Shown here in pieces: positions 20,595 through 49,393 of a stretch of DNA of 49,393 bases (within the stretch, counting starts at the first letter, position 1; each line of letters starts with the position of its first letter). The position numbers and the translations under genes are program-made. Origin of the DNA: Clostridiales bacterium (GTDB lineage Bacteria; Bacillota; Clostridia; Oscillospirales; CAG-272). Under the pieces are notes generated by a model. The model was not told where the DNA came from and searched no databases. It saw only the letters and a list, made by a program, of their open reading frames with translations. Where the stretch lies: positions 1 to 49,393 of the forward strand of contig DURE01000007.1 of assembly GCA_012837425.1 (NCBI GenBank). The letters are read 5' to 3'.

Positions 20595-20628
20595 GCGGGG
20601 GAAACTTCTTTCAAGAAGTTTCCCCCGC
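20595..20628. repeat. perfect long palindrome behind trpS
   Basis: GCGGGGGAAACTTCTT (20595-20610), a 2-base centre, then its exact reverse complement (20613-20628): 16-bp arms. It is 26 bases past the trpS stop and may be its terminator or a 3' stabilising hairpin, though no U-tract follows on the minus strand. Same family as 10614, 26327 and 46516. Confidence 0.85.
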
Positions 20629-42678: not shown

Positions 42679-42745
42679 GTAAATTAACAGATTTTCCGAA
42701 TTATTACCCAGGGGCGGGCTACGAAAATCGACAGGAGGCATGAGT

Positions 42746-43117
42746 ATGCGCGAGCCGGCAAAATGTATTCTGCTGGCGGCTGTAGGCCTTGCTTCGGGGT
42801 TTGTCAACGGACTGCTCGGCGCCGGCGGTGGAATCATAGCTGTATATGCGCTGAGCAGGCTGCTCGGCAGACAGCTTGATGACAGCCGCGACGCCTTTTC
42901 AAACGCGCTGGCCGTGATGCTGCCGCTCTCGGCGATCTCGGCCGCCGGATATGCCCTGCGGGGTGCCCTCCCCGATACGATCGGGGTCCTTGTGATTCCG
43001 GCGGTGCTCGGCGGACTTTTGGGCGGCGCTCTGCTTTATCGGACCAAGGCGCGCTGGCTCAGAGTGCTTTTTTCGGTGATGGTTGTCTGGTCGGGGGTGT
43101 CGATGCTCGCCGGGTAG
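42746..43117 (+). CDS. half-size TauE/SafE family membrane protein (first of pair)
   Basis: 123 residues with about four membrane segments. GFVNGLLGAGGGIIAVYAL is the family's N-terminal glycine-rich motif, and PAVLGGLLGGALLYRTKARW with LFSVMVVWSGVSMLAG is the matching end of one repeat unit. Full TauE/SafE transporters have about 250 residues in two such repeats, so this is one half. The start at 42746 has AGGAGG 7 bases upstream; an ATG at 42740 is only 1 base from it. The partner half begins 36 bases downstream, and the two probably form a heteromeric anion (sulfite-type) exporter. Confidence 0.87.
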   Translation: MREPAKCILLAAVGLASGFVNGLLGAGGGIIAVYALSRLLGRQLDDSRDAFSNALAVMLPLSAISAAGYALRGALPDTIGVLVIPAVLGGLLGGALLYRTKARWLRVLFSVMVVWSGVSMLAG

Positions 43118-43153: not shown

Positions 43154-43555
43154 TTGATATTTGATGTCATTGTAGCTTTTGGAATTGCTCTGCTCTCGGG
43201 CATGGGGGTAGGCAGTGCCGGCCTGCTTGTCGCCTGGCTCACTGCCGCAGAGAAAATGCCTCAGCTTGCCGCTCAAGGGCTCAACCTTTATTTTTTCCTC
43301 TTTTCCTCCTCGGCTTCGCTGATGATTCACCTTCGGCGTCAAAGGATATTGTGGGGAGTGGTGCTTCTCATGGCCATGTTCGGCGCGCTCGGCGCACTTT
43401 TGGGAACCTGGATTGCTTCGCGGACAAATCCTCACCTGTTGCGCAAGCTCTTCGGGCTGATGTTGCTCGCCTCGGGCAGTATCTCGATGGCAAGGTCTCT
43501 CGGGCTTGTAGGTAAACCAAAACCCGCCACTAAAAAAACCAAAGTCGGCAGATAA
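43154..43555 (+). CDS. half-size TauE/SafE family membrane protein (second of pair)
   Basis: 133 residues with about four membrane segments. GIALLSGMGVGSAGLLVAWL is the second-half version of the TauE motif, and IHLRRQRILWGVVLLMAMFG plus LGTWIASRTNPHLLRKLFGL match the rest of the repeat. It starts with TTG at 43154, with GGAGATG about 7 bases upstream; an ATG inside that region is in another frame and stops at once. The C terminus is basic (KPKPATKKTKVGR). It is co-transcribed with the first half. Confidence 0.85.
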   Translation: MIFDVIVAFGIALLSGMGVGSAGLLVAWLTAAEKMPQLAAQGLNLYFFLFSSSASLMIHLRRQRILWGVVLLMAMFGALGALLGTWIASRTNPHLLRKLFGLMLLASGSISMARSLGLVGKPKPATKKTKVGR

Positions 43556-43748: not shown

Positions 43749-43784
43749 TCTGTGTCAGTGCAAGAATTTTGAAAGGTGAAAAAA

Positions 43785-44048
43785 ATGACCAAAGCAGAAA
43801 AACAGGCAATTATTGCGGAATACGCCATGCATGAGGGAGACACGGGCTCACCCGAGGTACAGATAGCGCTGATTACAGCCCGCATCAAAAACCTCACCGA
43901 GCATCTTAAGGCAAACCCTAAAGACCATCACAGCCGCCGCGGGCTGCTGAAAATGGTCGGCCATAGGAGAAACCTGCTCAACTACCTTATAAAAACCGAT
44001 ATCGAACGCTACCGTTCAATAATCGAGAAGCTCAGCATCAGAAAGTAA
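43785..44048 (+). CDS. rpsO: 30S ribosomal protein S15
   Basis: 87 residues from the ATG at 43785 ([10 protein letters not shown]), with AAAGGTG 6 bases upstream; an in-frame GTG three codons earlier lies inside that site. It binds the central domain of 16S rRNA early in 30S assembly. Family signatures: [56 protein letters not shown]. It is upstream of pnp as in many bacteria. Confidence 0.98.
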
Positions 44049-44285: not shown

Positions 44286-44326
44286 TATAAATAAATTATA
44301 TGTATTTTATGGAGGACATATTGTTT

Positions 44327-46441
44327 ATGTCGGAAAAAATCAGCTCGCAGATTCAGTTCAAAAACCACAGAACCTTCAACTACACGCTTGCCGGCAGGCC
44401 GCTTGTTGTCGAGTCGGGCAAACTTGCAGGGCAGGCAAACGGCTCTGTATTAATCCGTTACGGAGAGACCGCGGTGCTCTGTTGCGCCACAGCCTCCCCG
44501 AAGCCGCGCGAAGGCATTGATTTTCTGCCGCTGTCGGTTGACTATGAGGAAAAAATGTACGCGGCCGGAAAAATCCCCGGCGGATACCTCAGGAGAGAAG
44601 GGCGTCCTTCCGAAAAAGCCGTACTGGCCGCCCGCGTTATCGACCGCCCTATTCGCCCGCTCTTCCCAAAGGACCTGCGCAATGATGTCGTGCTCACGCT
44701 GACCGTAATGTCGGTAGACCCCGCGTGCCCGCCCGAAATTACCGCCATGATAGGCGCCTCGATTGCTCTGTCAATATCGGACATCCCCTGGAACGGCCCT
44801 GTCGGCGGTGTTCTGGTCGGTCTTGTTGACGGTAAAGTTATCATTAACCCCACCGATGAGGAACAAAAGAGGTCCGATCTGTCGCTCACCGTCGCGGCAA
44901 CCAGGAAAAAAATCGTGATGATTGAAGCCGGCGCGAGCGAAGTAGACGAGGCTACAATGTTCGACGCCATAATGTACGCCCACAAGGAAATCAAGGATTT
45001 ACTCAACTTCATTTATGCCATTGCCGACGAAATCGGCAAGCCTAAGTTCGAGTATCCCACCTGCGAGCTGGACCCCGAGGTGTTCGAGAAAATTTTCAGC
45101 TTCTGCGAGCAGGACGTGATGTTCGCCCTTGATACCGACGACAAAAACGTGCGGGAAGAGCGAATGCTGCCAATTGTCGACGGCATCCTTGAGAAATTCG
45201 GCGAGGAATATCCCGACCTGTCGGTGAAGCTGCCCGAGATAATTTATCAAATTCAGAAGAAGATTGTCCGCCGCTGGCTGCTGGTCGACAAAAAACGCGT
45301 CGACGGCCGCCGCATGGACGAAATCCGCCCACTCGGAGCCGAAGTAGCGCTGCTTCCGAGGACCCACGGCTCGGGACTCTTCACCAGAGGTCAAACCCAG
45401 GTTATCACCGCGGCCACGCTCGGCATGCTCTCCGAGGCGCAGATGCTCGACGGCATCGACAACGAGACCTCAAAGCGCTATATGCACCATTACAATATGC
45501 CGGGCTATTCGGTAGGAGAGGCAAAATCAAACCGCAGCCCCAGCCGGCGCGAAATAGGCCACGGTGCGCTGGCCGAGCGTGCGCTCCTGCCGGTGCTGCC
45601 CCCCGAGGAGAAGTTCCCTTATGCCATCCGCCTTGTATCCGACGTGGTTTCTTCAAATGGCTCCACCTCACAGGCCGCGGTCTGCGCCTCGACTCTGGCG
45701 CTGATGGATGCCGGAGTACCGATTAAGGCACCGGTCGCCGGAATCTCCTGCGGACTTATTACCGCCGAGGACGGAAGCTGGGACACCATTCTCGATATCC
45801 AGGGGGTTGAGGACTTCTTTGGCGACATGGACTTCAAGGTTGCCGGCACACATAAGGGCATCACCGCCATTCAGATGGACCTCAAAATAGACGGACTGAC
45901 CCCTGAAATCATAAAAAAAGCACTTGCAGAAACCCGCCGTGCCCGCAAATATATAATCGACGAAGTACTGCTTAAAGCCATTCCGGCACCCAGACCCGAG
46001 ATTTCAAAGTACGCGCCCAAGCTGACTACGCTGCATATTGACCCAGAGAAGATTCGCGACGTTATAGGAAAGGGCGGCTCGGTGATTCAGAAAATCGTGG
46101 CCGAGAGCGGTGCTAAAATCGACATCGAGGACGACGGAACGGTTATTATTGCCGCGGTCAACAGCGAGAGCGCCGAGCTGGCCAAGTCGGCCATCGAGGC
46201 TATTGTCTTTGAACCCGAGGTGGGCGCTATCTATACCGGCCGGGTCACAAGTATCAAGGAATTCGGCTGCTTTGTCGAATATGCTCCGGGCAAGGAGGGT
46301 ATGGTCCATATCTCCAAAATCGCCCCCCGCCGGATAGAAAAGGTGGAGGATGTCTTAAAGCTCGGGGACATCGTAAAGGTGAAATATATCGGTCTTGACA
46401 AAAAAGGCCGCATGGACTTCTCTATAAAAGACGCAAAGTAA
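44327..46441 (+). CDS. pnp: polyribonucleotide nucleotidyltransferase (PNPase)
   Basis: Phosphorolytic 3'-5' exoribonuclease of RNA decay. About 704 residues with the full layout. First RNase PH domain: YTLAGRPLVVESGKLAGQAN, FLPLSVDYEEKMYAAGKIPG. Helical linker, then the second, catalytic RNase PH domain: LPRTHGSGLFTRGQTQVI, NMPGYSVGEAKSNRSPSRRE, SSNGSTSQAAVCASTLALMD. KH domain DVIGKGGSVIQKIVAESGAK. S1 domain IYTGRVTSIKEFGCFVEYAP ending near residue 700. I use the ATG at 44327 (MSEKISS), which has GGAGG about 11 bases upstream. A TTG at 44321 with closer spacing is an alternative. Confidence 0.97.
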   Translation: MSEKISSQIQFKNHRTFNYTLAGRPLVVESGKLAGQANGSVLIRYGETAVLCCATASPKPREGIDFLPLSVDYEEKMYAAGKIPGGYLRREGRPSEKAVLAARVIDRPIRPLFPKDLRNDVVLTLTVMSVDPACPPEITAMIGASIALSISDIPWNGPVGGVLVGLVDGKVIINPTDEEQKRSDLSLTVAATRKKIVMIEAGASEVDEATMFDAIMYAHKEIKDLLNFIYAIADEIGKPKFEYPTCELDPEVFEKIFSFCEQDVMFALDTDDKNVREERMLPIVDGILEKFGEEYPDLSVKLPEIIYQIQKKIVRRWLLVDKKRVDGRRMDEIRPLGAEVALLPRTHGSGLFTRGQTQVITAATLGMLSEAQMLDGIDNETSKRYMHHYNMPGYSVGEAKSNRSPSRREIGHGALAERALLPVLPPEEKFPYAIRLVSDVVSSNGSTSQAAVCASTLALMDAGVPIKAPVAGISCGLITAEDGSWDTILDIQGVEDFFGDMDFKVAGTHKGITAIQMDLKIDGLTPEIIKKALAETRRARKYIIDEVLLKAIPAPRPEISKYAPKLTTLHIDPEKIRDVIGKGGSVIQKIVAESGAKIDIEDDGTVIIAAVNSESAELAKSAIEAIVFEPEVGAIYTGRVTSIKEFGCFVEYAPGKEGMVHISKIAPRRIEKVEDVLKLGDIVKVKYIGLDKKGRMDFSIKDAK

Positions 46442-46451
46442 GGGGAACGCG

Positions 46452-46610
46452 CGGGGGCTCCGCCCCCGAACCCCCTACATGGAAGCGCTACGGGGGCTCT
46501 GCCCCCGTACCCCCGCCAAAGGAAACTTTTTGAAAAAAGTTTCCTTTGGAAACCTTCAAAAACTTCAAAAATAGACCCTACTTTATGTGCCCGGCGCCCG
46601 CAAGCCGGGC
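46452..46610. repeat. cluster of four hairpins between pnp and the VanY-like gene
   Basis: CGGGGG-CTCCG-CCCCG type at 46452-46468 and 46491-46507 (near copies). Then a perfect palindrome CCAAAGGAAACTTTTT (46516-46531), a GA centre and its reverse complement (46534-46549). Last, GCCCGGC / GCCGGGC at 46589-46610. The palindrome probably ends the pnp transcript. The same order of a GC hairpin and an ACTTTTT-AAAAAGT palindrome occurs after the araC-type gene (26301-26360). Confidence 0.8.
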
Positions 46611-46620
46611 AAAGAGTCAC

Positions 46621-46673
46621 AGGCCCCTTGACTAACCGAAAAAAGCAAAACCGTTTTGAAGGGGTCAAGGGGG
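46621..46673 (+). promoter_or_regulatory. long hairpin ahead of the VanY-like gene
   Basis: CCCCTTGAC pairs with GTCAAGGGG over an A-rich loop (about 46623-46673), about 44 bases before the start. It may be part of the repeat cluster or a leader structure. No good promoter was found between it and pnp. Confidence 0.45.
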
Positions 46674-46716
46674 TTTTCATAAATCCCCCTGCCCCCCATC
46701 GAAAGGAGTAATGAAG

Positions 46717-47724
46717 ATGAACAGCCGCGAACCCGGACAATCTCCGCAAAAGCTCGGTTCAGGGCGTGCCGCCCGCCTGCGCCGAAAAAGAAGAAAGAGA
46801 CTCGCTCTGTTTGCCTCATTTGTGGTAATAATCCTTTTGATTGTGCTTGCCATAGTGCTACTGGCGCTCGAGATTGCCGACGCCTCGCAGAAGCTTAAAG
46901 ATAACAAGGATGACACCTCAGCCCCAAGCGGGACCGATACCACCGACCCGCTCTTGGACTATGTGCCGGCGAGCGGTACCTACAGTATCCATGAGGGTAC
47001 CTTGATTCTGGTCAACAAAACAAACGAATATGTTTTTCCCGCGGTGGATACGCACCTTGCCGACATGCGCTCCAGCCGCACGCAGAATAGCTCGGGCGAT
47101 TATTCCTACCAGTGTGATTACAACAAACGCCTTGATATAACGTCGCTTGCCGCCTTCAACAAAATGATGGACGCCTTTTTTGCCGCTACAGACAACCCCT
47201 ATGCGCTGGTCTCAGACGCCTACCGCTCCTATTCGGACCAGGAAGGCAAATCAATCCCGGCGGGGCACAGCGACCACCACACCGGTTATTTGGTGTCAAT
47301 CAAGTTTTACGACGACACTGGCATATACACCTCCGAGCATCCCAAATACGCCGACGCCTATGCATGGCTCGACTCGCATGCCGCACAATACGGCTTTGTC
47401 ATGCGTTATCCCCCGAACAAAACCCATATAACCGGGGTGAGCGATTATACTTACAGCTACAGATATGTCGGCCCGGCCCACGCCGCCTATATGAGCGCAA
47501 ACAACCTCTGCCTTGAGGAATATGTGGAACTGCTGAAAACCTCGTATCAGTTCGGCAGCGAGCACTTGAAAATCACCGACTCAAGCGGGGTGAATTACGA
47601 AGTCTATTACGTCCCTGCCACAGACGGCGCCGAAACCGAAATCAACGTTCCGGTCTCAAGCGGTGGCTTTGAGATTTCGGGCGACAACGAGGCCGGCTTT
47701 ATAGTAACTGTAACCTTGAAATAA
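46717..47724 (+). CDS. VanY-like (M15B) protein lacking its zinc ligands
   Basis: 335 residues: basic N terminus, one membrane segment (about 29-53), then an extracytoplasmic domain. LVSDAYRSYSDQEGKSIPAG then HSDHHTGYLV and ITGVSDYTYSYRYVGPAHA align with the D,D-carboxypeptidase motifs S-x-H-x2-G-x-A-x-D and E-x2-W-H-x-R-Y-V-G. The first His (about 187) is kept, but the Asp is Ser (about 194), the catalytic Glu is Tyr (about 244) and the last zinc His is Ser (about 247). It should therefore be inactive as a peptidase, perhaps a binding or scaffold protein for cell-wall peptides. AAAGGAG is 8 bases before the ATG at 46717. It lies 13 bases before the DHHW gene. Confidence 0.85.
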   Translation: MNSREPGQSPQKLGSGRAARLRRKRRKRLALFASFVVIILLIVLAIVLLALEIADASQKLKDNKDDTSAPSGTDTTDPLLDYVPASGTYSIHEGTLILVNKTNEYVFPAVDTHLADMRSSRTQNSSGDYSYQCDYNKRLDITSLAAFNKMMDAFFAATDNPYALVSDAYRSYSDQEGKSIPAGHSDHHTGYLVSIKFYDDTGIYTSEHPKYADAYAWLDSHAAQYGFVMRYPPNKTHITGVSDYTYSYRYVGPAHAAYMSANNLCLEEYVELLKTSYQFGSEHLKITDSSGVNYEVYYVPATDGAETEINVPVSSGGFEISGDNEAGFIVTVTLK

Positions 47725-47737
47725 AGGCAGACGCCGC

Positions 47738-48961
47738 ATGGCAAAAATTAATCCGGCCGATGAAGCCACCTCCCGTCATCTCAATATTCAGGCAAAAGCA
47801 GCCCCCAACACGCGCGCGGCCGACATGTTGCTTGTCATAATCTGCGCGGCAATTCTTGCGGGTTTCGGAATCTCCATCTGGGTTCTGCCCCACAAGGCCT
47901 TTTCTCCCGACGAAAACCGCACGCTCGCACAGTTTCCGGAATTCTCAATAAACTCGTTGACCGGCGGCAGATACACCGCTGCTGTCGGCAGCTTTTACGC
48001 CGACCAATTCCCCTTCCGGGAATATTTTGTCGGGCTTAAGGCGGTCTCTGAACTGGCGCAGCTCAAAATGCAGAATAATAATGTCATCCCCTGCGCCGGA
48101 GGAAATCTTGTCAAGCGGCTCGAATATCAGGATTATTCTAATGCAAAAAAGAATTTAGCGGCCCTTACTGAATTCCGCGACGCACTCGCACCTCTCGGAA
48201 TTCCGGTAATCCCGGCATTTGTGCCGCGCCCGGTCGACGTGCTGAACTCAATCCTCCCCCCGCTCTACGGCAGCGACAGGTCGGACAGAGTCTGGGAGGT
48301 GATAGCCGCCTCACAGGTCGGCGGGGTTGACCTGCTCACGCCGACAAGGTCGCTTGCCGGGCAGAGCGAGTATGTCTGGTACCGCACCGACCACCACTGG
48401 ACGACGCGCGGTGCATACGCCGCATATATTGAACTGGCCGAGGGCCTCGGGTACACTCCGAAGCCACTCTCGTTTTTTGAGATAACAAGGGTTTCGGACG
48501 AGTTCTACGGCACCATATGGTCAAGCTCGGGTATGAGGTGGACCCGACCCGACACCCTGGAGTTTTACCGCTATGCCGGGGATAGTGACTATACCGTCCG
48601 CAATATCCTGACCGGCGAGGAAATGCAGGGCTTCTATGAGCTGTCATATCTTGATACAAAGGACAAATACGCTGCCTTTCTCGGGGGCAACAGCGCGCAT
48701 GTCAGGGTCACGGGTAAGGGCGCCGACCGGCCGACACTGCTTTTGGTAAAGGACAGCTACGCAAACGCGCTTGTGCCCTTCCTTGCAATTCATTTTGACC
48801 TTGAGATAATTGACCTGCGCTCCTATACCGGCTCGGCGGGGGCGCTGGCAAAGGATACGGGGGCAGTGGCGGTTTTGATTCTATACGGCGCCGACATGAT
48901 TGCCTCGTCCGACGACCTGACCCTGCTCGGCTACGGGCTATCCGCGCTAAAAAATCAATAA
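47738..48961 (+). CDS. DHHW family (AlgX/SGNH-like) protein
   Basis: 407 residues with one N-terminal membrane segment (about 30-52, MLLVIICAAILAGFGISIWV). DENRTLAQFPEFSI and YADQFPFREYFVGLK are typical of the group. The name-giving motif is YRTDHHWTTRGAYAAY (about 220), and TLLLVKDSYANALVPFL carries the Ser block of the SGNH-like fold. Relatives help O-acetylate extracellular polysaccharides, usually beside an MBOAT acyltransferase, but none is present here. It directly follows the VanY-like gene with 13 bases between and no promoter, so the two are co-expressed. Confidence 0.9.
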   Translation: MAKINPADEATSRHLNIQAKAAPNTRAADMLLVIICAAILAGFGISIWVLPHKAFSPDENRTLAQFPEFSINSLTGGRYTAAVGSFYADQFPFREYFVGLKAVSELAQLKMQNNNVIPCAGGNLVKRLEYQDYSNAKKNLAALTEFRDALAPLGIPVIPAFVPRPVDVLNSILPPLYGSDRSDRVWEVIAASQVGGVDLLTPTRSLAGQSEYVWYRTDHHWTTRGAYAAYIELAEGLGYTPKPLSFFEITRVSDEFYGTIWSSSGMRWTRPDTLEFYRYAGDSDYTVRNILTGEEMQGFYELSYLDTKDKYAAFLGGNSAHVRVTGKGADRPTLLLVKDSYANALVPFLAIHFDLEIIDLRSYTGSAGALAKDTGAVAVLILYGADMIASSDDLTLLGYGLSALKNQ

Positions 48962-49006
48962 CCCGTATTATTGTACTTGTGGCGAGCAATAATAAATCCA
49001 AAGCAA

Positions 49007-49037
49007 GCGGCCAATGTGCCGCTGGCCGCAATTCTTT
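49007..49037 (+). terminator. rho-independent terminator
   Basis: GCGGCCA (49007-49013) and TGGCCGC (49023-49029), then AATTCTTT. It ends the VanY-like/DHHW transcript. Confidence 0.8.
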
Positions 49038-49070
49038 AGTAACCGCTACTTGCGGTATGGGGGTTATAGT

Positions 49071-49304
49071 ATGATGAAAACCAAGCTGAAAAAGAACGGG
49101 AAACTCTTCCGCATGTTCAAAAAGCCCTATGTGCAGAACCGCGTAACCTTCACCTCGCAGCTCTATCCCAACGCCAACACCTCAAAGCCGGCGCTCACCG
49201 CCGGAGCCTCGGGCAGCTTCAACATCCCGCTGCTTCCGCTTCTGGCATGGCTGGGCGCTATGACCGCGGTTTTTGTTGTGGTCTCCAAAATGAGGAGCCA
49301 TTAA
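49071..49304 (+). CDS. small membrane protein of unknown function
   Basis: 77 residues from the ATG at 49071 (MMKTKLKKNG). The longer frame from 49014 starts inside the terminator and is rejected. The N-terminal half is basic (KLKKNGKLFRMFKKPYVQ), and the C-terminal half holds one membrane segment (FNIPLLPLLAWLGAMTAVFV). A G-rich stretch (GGGGGTT) lies about 9 bases upstream as a weak binding site. A short hairpin ACCGC / GCGGT (49041-49055) precedes it. No family recognised. It may be a small accessory to the envelope genes before it. Confidence 0.5.
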   Translation: MMKTKLKKNGKLFRMFKKPYVQNRVTFTSQLYPNANTSKPALTAGASGSFNIPLLPLLAWLGAMTAVFVVVSKMRSH

Positions 49305-49393
49305 CCAAAGCCGAATAAATTCCATATAGCCTGCCCCTTTTCGCGACGCCTGAAAACCGTATTTTTCGATTATGTAAGGCGGCTGTCGCCGCC

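Follow-up and report, generated by a model that had tools for sequence, protein, structure and literature searches.

The window considered here, by which we mean the whole stretch of 49,393 nucleotides that was analysed, comes from a gut bacterium and carries a gene for a VanY-like protein whose active site appears to have been dismantled, followed closely by a gene of the DHHW family. VanY itself is a vancomycin-resistance enzyme. Since DHHW enzymes are believed to acetylate polysaccharides of the cell surface, the locus raises the question of what a carboxypeptidase without its catalytic residues might be kept for, and what, if anything, joins it to an O-acetyltransferase. All of the genes concerned are on the + strand, in the order rpsO, pnp, VanY-like gene, DHHW gene and a 96-aa open reading frame; rpsO and pnp are named here from their sequence. 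The features are as follows.

43776..44048, + strand, rpsO (S15), the conserved next-but-one 5' neighbour
44300..46441, + strand, pnp (polynucleotide phosphorylase), the conserved 5' neighbour that marks the gene place
46711..47724, + strand, predicted VanY-like pseudo-D,D-carboxypeptidase of M15B fold, 337 aa, from Pfam, NCBIfam and structure matches
47224..47241, + strand, codons of Arg172 to Gln177, kept, equivalent to SpLdcB Arg120/Gln125 by motif spacing
47269..47298, + strand, codons of Ser187 (kept) and His189 (kept zinc-ligand position) to Ser196 (zinc Asp lost)
47446..47457, + strand, codons of Tyr246 (catalytic Glu lost) to Ser249 (second zinc His lost)
47738..48961, + strand, DHHW protein (SGNH-type O-acetyltransferase, PatB1-like), 407 aa, with TDHHW, KDS and DLRS blocks
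49014..49304, + strand, small open reading frame, 96 aa, without a Pfam match

The VanY-like reading frame is complete, and its probable start is 46717 rather than 46711, since the former has the better AGGAG spacing and coincides with a near-invariant Met of the alignment. The Pfam VanY profile matches the product at 1.8e-13 and the NCBIfam model vanY_AFMPt (NF000472) at an E value of 1.1e-25, yet the score of 90.5 bits lies far below the curated cut-off of 425 bits. In profile and sequence comparisons the ectodomain (aa 82-336), its C-terminal part included, matches VanY_A and VanXYG, D,D-carboxypeptidases which, like VanY_B, belong to MEROPS family M15B. A hydrophobic, transmembrane-like stretch at aa 31-51 is predicted to hold the protein in the membrane with the ectodomain outside. 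An AlphaFold2 model built from a 50-row alignment (mean pLDDT 91) has the M15B fold, its best structural match being VanXYG (4f78; Z 26.6, rmsd 2.4, 230 residues aligned, aa 82-336), followed by LdcB, VanXYC and VanYB (Z 13-18) and by Hedgehog (Z ~9). The preliminary description had spoken of a clear D,D-carboxypeptidase fold in an intact, membrane-anchored protein, and the frame, the model and the predicted anchor agree with it.

The site itself is another matter. The first motif reads SDHHTGYLVSIKF in place of SxHxxxxxxD, the His being kept and the Asp replaced by Ser, and the second reads YTYSYRYVG where ExxH is expected, with Glu replaced by Tyr and His by Ser. The three zinc-ligand positions are accordingly occupied by H189, S196 and S249, and that of the catalytic Glu by Y246; the earlier count of three changed positions out of four (D to S, E to Y, H to S) was correct, and the first His alone remains. 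From these residues we infer that the protein could not hold a catalytic zinc in the manner usual for its family and that it has probably lost carboxypeptidase activity.

Whether the loss is peculiar to this genome was examined in 101 loci, comprising the window and 100 others fetched out of 124 candidate regions listed; a match had been found in 247 of 395 genomes, and the loci chosen represent mostly the high-scoring part of the matches listed. In 80 of the 101, pnp lies directly 5' on the same strand, which makes the VanY-like gene a positional orthologue. These 80 proteins comprise 16 with a full HDEH site, nine with a partial one (HNDH or HDDH) and 55 in which it is lost. The other 21 loci, with no pnp within 600 bp upstream, some by reason of a contig end, were left out of the tree; they include 13 full, 3 partial and 5 lost sites. 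In a tree of the 80 proteins built without the four site columns, a single branch sets 54 of the 55 lost proteins off from the rest, L111 standing apart. Support is 46 at the base of the lost group, which is weak, and 80 at an inner fork of 50 rows. A tree constraining all 55 together was not rejected (p-AU 0.116), and they may have a single origin. Thirteen genus codes are represented among the 54, seven among the 16 full proteins and two among the nine partial ones. The preliminary description had left it to orthologues to say whether ligand loss is conserved, and had named full-ligand orthologues in the same gene place as contrary evidence. The loss is indeed shared by 54 pnp-linked proteins; full-ligand orthologues do occur in the same place, in 16 of the 80, but in another part of the tree.

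L111 was excluded from the column statistics of the lost group (54 rows) and included in the counts of recognition residues and segment lengths (55 rows). Tyr occupies the catalytic Glu position in 44 of the 54 and Phe in 5; Asp replaces the Glu before the first His in 87%, Val243 is found in 78% and His190 in 89%. Thirty-four of the 54, the window's protein among them, retain the first zinc His. Elsewhere the replacements are various: H, S, F or Y at the first His, A, T, S, E or Q at the Asp, and A, C or Y at the second His. The segment from the recognition Gln to the SxH motif measures 3-16 residues in all 55 lost proteins (9 in the window's protein) versus 25 in 15 of the 16 full ones and 17 in the remaining one; in the partial proteins it is 15-16, with one of 32. 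Of 13 lost pairs, 12 yielded an estimate of dN/dS, and these lie at 0.07-0.22, three resting on saturated dS (>2); of six full pairs four yielded one, at 0.09-0.19, and the two partial pairs gave 0.08 and 0.15. An intact frame, purifying selection and conserved loss, the marks of a pseudoenzyme under selection, are thus all found. An order-wide search gave a match in 236 of 394 genomes; among the best 30 loci, which were inspected with about 1.5 kb of flank each, 20 lie outside the family, in four other families of the order, and all 20 have HDEH and no pnp match within that flank. The enzyme state is therefore most likely ancestral, and the pnp place and the site loss both seem to belong to this bacterial family. 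Taken together, the grouped loss, the purifying selection, the shortened segment and the nearly fixed Tyr lead us to regard the protein, on sequence grounds, as an old and maintained pseudo-carboxypeptidase.

Two features of individual relatives may be recorded here. The partial-site proteins (L082, L099, L100, L103, L106, L110, L112, L131 and L158) have conservative changes that leave the site half-way between full and lost; eight of them group with L111, and L158 stands apart. Furthermore, all nine lost proteins with Cys at 194, two residues before the former zinc Asp, also have Cys249 at the former second zinc His (L064, L065, L066, L070, L074, L075, L083, L109 and L115), and five more lost proteins have the latter Cys only. 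As the pairing is complete and the nine fall in two separate parts of the tree, this suggests that a disulfide may have taken the place of zinc in these relatives; the window's protein has no such pair.

What has been preserved is the half of the site that recognizes the substrate. According to the SpLdcB report (PMC4087270), the carboxylate of the peptide is bound in that enzyme by a salt bridge from Arg120, while the specificity for D-Ala is ascribed to Gln125 and Ser151. Motif spacing and an alignment with VanXYG and VanYB place Arg172, Gln177 and Ser187 at the equivalent positions, so that the D-Ala recognition residues are complete in the window's protein. The trio is complete in every one of the 16 full and nine partial proteins and in 52 of the 55 lost ones; at least one residue is missing from L138, L149 and L159, all of the lost group and two of them DHHW-linked. 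Because the Arg, Gln and Ser are kept while the zinc and catalytic half is gone, a protein that binds stem peptides without cutting them is the most likely interpretation, and the VanY-like pseudoenzyme probably does bind them. The wall-peptide-binding role first suggested for it gains support accordingly.

Compared with VanXYG (PDB 4f78/4muq), VanY_A and VanY_B, the protein shares the whole ectodomain fold including the VanXYG C-terminal domain, the three recognition residues and the GF..RYP and RYVG..HA scaffolds, whereas it lacks the zinc Asp, the second zinc His and the catalytic Glu; in the full-ligand orthologues the Gln-SxH segment is also longer, as described above. The LdcB/DacB L,D-carboxypeptidases (4ox3, 4ox5, 4d0y) resemble it in fold (Z 13-18) and in the residues contacting the stem peptide, but have the full zinc site. 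Pseudopeptidases as such are already well known. The Hedgehog N-terminal domain, which is of the same M15-like fold class, is held to be one in which the pseudo-active site serves for binding, a matter not finally settled, and it is the sole M15 entry in the accessible part of a review of pseudopeptidases (PMC11266112). Hedgehog differs in having kept its zinc ligands, and the present protein in being bacterial and wall-facing. In the literature on inactive VanY and M15 homologues, to the extent of its mainly open and partly accessible texts, we found no bacterial VanY pseudoenzyme family. The present proteins form a natural series, running within a single gene place across one bacterial family from full enzymes by way of half-changed ones to those with lost sites, with the recognition half kept, and so the function of a dead wall enzyme becomes directly testable.

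The DHHW reading frame begins 14 bp after the VanY-like stop codon and matches Pfam DHHW (PF14286) at 2.2e-29, with 103.3 bits against a gathering score of 25. Of the PatB1-family blocks, as defined in the available text of PMC9487903, the catalytic Ser of KDS and the Asp and His of TDHHW are present, and the DxRY block reads DLRS, the oxyanion Arg being kept and the Tyr replaced by Ser. The genome contains no second DHHW gene. In 16 of the 101 loci, spanning nine genus codes, a DHHW gene follows the VanY-like gene in the same orientation, with gaps of 5-72 bp in 13; in G105 the two are separated by one DUF1576 gene, bringing the genomes with the pair to 17. The pairing noted in the preliminary description is thus recurrent, but it is patchy, being found in 15 of the 80 pnp-linked loci and absent from 41 of the 55 lost proteins. 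The lost state occurs in 14 of 15 pnp-linked proteins with DHHW versus 41 of 65 without (Fisher p 0.03, kinship ignored), while a phylogeny-aware test of adjacency against loss had two usable pairs and no power. A strict coupling of the two was rejected: DHHW adjacency does not need ligand loss, since in L116/G174, which is not pnp-linked, the DHHW gene lies beside a full-ligand VanY gene, and in L158 beside a partial one. In a tree of DHHW proteins five changes of the label "beside VanY" have to be assumed, at least two of them forced by starred branches.

Downstream neighbours of the VanY-like gene vary among the loci and include DHHW proteins, Cthe_2159-type carbohydrate-binding lipoproteins, solute-binding-type lipoproteins and small proteins. 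VanY-like genes with a full or partial zinc site are often followed by a gene for a solute-binding-type lipoprotein (L111 and L142 being exceptions), and those with a lost site by one for a Cthe_2159-type lipoprotein (except in L146); such loci include L104, L117, L139, L071, L081 and others, one member of each set having been named by Pfam. Relatives of the 96-aa open reading frame (49014-49304) also follow the VanY-like/DHHW pair in L061, L062 and L086.

In Bacillus cereus the DHHW protein PatB1 works with the MBOAT protein PatA1. The present protein shares with PatB1 the KDS, D-x-R and TDHHW blocks, and its genome has an MBOAT with the shuttle motif; here, however, the MBOAT is not adjacent, and the DHHW gene has a pseudo-carboxypeptidase for its neighbour instead. 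There is no MBOAT gene next to the DHHW gene in the window, and in this local sense the earlier statement that the pair has no MBOAT partner stands. Genome-wide it must be rejected. Four MBOAT genes lie elsewhere in the same genome, one of them solo (C30:51358-52782), and the C-terminal FLYFRF of its product fits FXYXXF, given as the acyl-shuttle motif of MBOAT-SGNH systems in the accessible part of PMC12148441. DHHW relatives elsewhere are often directly 3' of an MBOAT. When the best DHHW and best MBOAT places were compared in 71 genomes (seven being uncounted for want of a listed DHHW place or an MBOAT match), they were adjacent in none of the 17 genomes with the VanY/DHHW pair versus 38 of the 47 others (Fisher p 2e-9, kinship ignored), a contrast that is in part inevitable, a single DHHW gene being scarcely able to occupy both places at once. 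Of the remaining nine pair-less genomes, eight have the two apart and one has them on the same contig but non-adjacent. The MBOAT neighbourhood itself was for this reason inspected in the 17 pair genomes. In 14, the window's genome included and one at a contig end, no DHHW-like gene lies within about 3 kb of the MBOAT; in G174 the MBOAT is 2.1 kb downstream of the DHHW gene, and in G075 and G171 the best MBOAT match adjoins another DHHW-like gene. Since orthologues of the solo MBOAT are found next to DHHW genes in other genomes, what the pair probably contributes is a wall-binding subunit for an MBOAT-SGNH O-acetyltransferase of a known kind. The solo MBOAT often has a comM-like Mg-chelatase gene before it and a cation-efflux gene behind it (L195-L201, L203, L209), one example of each neighbour having been named by Pfam.

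Our proposal, to which as a whole we would give an even chance, is that a dead carboxypeptidase binds wall peptide and serves as a subunit directing MBOAT-SGNH acetyl transfer. A D,D-carboxypeptidase of the VanY/VanXY/LdcB kind would have been inactivated anciently, to judge from its residue loss, and the membrane-held pseudoenzyme would bind the D-Ala end of nascent wall peptide without cleaving it. Its gene is probably co-expressed in this genome with that of the DHHW SGNH O-acetyltransferase, for which the solo MBOAT at C30 would most likely be the acetyl donor, and the pseudoenzyme may direct or license the acetylation of a surface polysaccharide at sites of exposed new peptidoglycan. The SGNH gene perhaps came to lie beside the pseudo-carboxypeptidase through repeated moves. 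Binding would be its central function and the association with DHHW one application of that function, because in relatives the pseudoenzyme adjoins other secreted proteins; a tight partnership is disfavoured by these neighbours, by the many lost proteins without DHHW and by the full enzyme of L116. The proposal suggests how surface-polymer O-acetylation might be tied to wall growth, and PMC12148441 treats as unanswered the question of which wall, new or mature and cross-linked, PatAB acts upon. A more specific form of it, in which the protein reads unprocessed, D-Ala-ended stem peptides and steers the MBOAT-SGNH system to new wall, with the site rebuilt by a disulfide in some relatives, we consider doubtful.

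The most serious alternative, which we would call a genuine if lesser possibility, is that the pseudo-VanY serves this bacterial family generally, in wall binding or regulation, and that the DHHW neighbour is an incidental passenger of a variable gene place. The varied downstream neighbours and the 41 lost proteins without DHHW favour this reading; it is less easily reconciled with an adjacency seen in nine genus codes, mostly at short gaps, with an MBOAT that mostly stands without DHHW in the pair genomes, and with the repeated neighbour changes in the DHHW tree. It is unlikely that the protein has remained an enzyme by means of another metal site or of a metal-free chemistry using Tyr246 and a second His, His190. 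The strong conservation of that Tyr and of His190 in the lost group does indicate a pocket under constraint, and the first zinc His persists in many of its members, the window's protein included; against this, the first His, Asp and second His have been replaced in many ways, the active-site segment is short in every lost protein, and one set has a Cys pair at the site instead. Quite unlikely, too, is a decoy or regulator that competes for stem peptides with the active VanY-like enzyme of the same genome: a full-ligand (HDEH) VanY protein is encoded at C59 and the pseudoenzyme has kept its D-Ala recognition residues, but the two genes are unlinked and nothing else points to such a relationship. 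Simple decay of a gene on its way out, which the lost catalytic residues might suggest, is rejected on the purifying selection in the lost pairs, and intact frames, a conserved fold and lineage-specific residues over 13 genus codes leave it scarcely credible.

Some minor observations concern the DNA around these genes. When 46380-49393 was scanned for promoters and terminators, the hits did not clearly exceed those in shuffled sequences. Between pnp and the VanY-like gene are two direct copies of a G/C-rich 24-mer (46452-46475 and 46491-46514), with no third one elsewhere in the window even when 3 mismatches are allowed, followed by a perfect palindrome with 16-bp arms (46516-46549). A similar palindrome is found at 20600-20623, and the pattern occurs at three places genome-wide versus zero for a reversed control pattern. 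Upstream of rpsO there are two tandem, half-size TauE/SafE reading frames on the + strand; that at 42740-43117 covers positions 124-237 of the profile, its second half, and that at 43154-43555 covers positions 3-113, its first half, so that the two halves look swapped.
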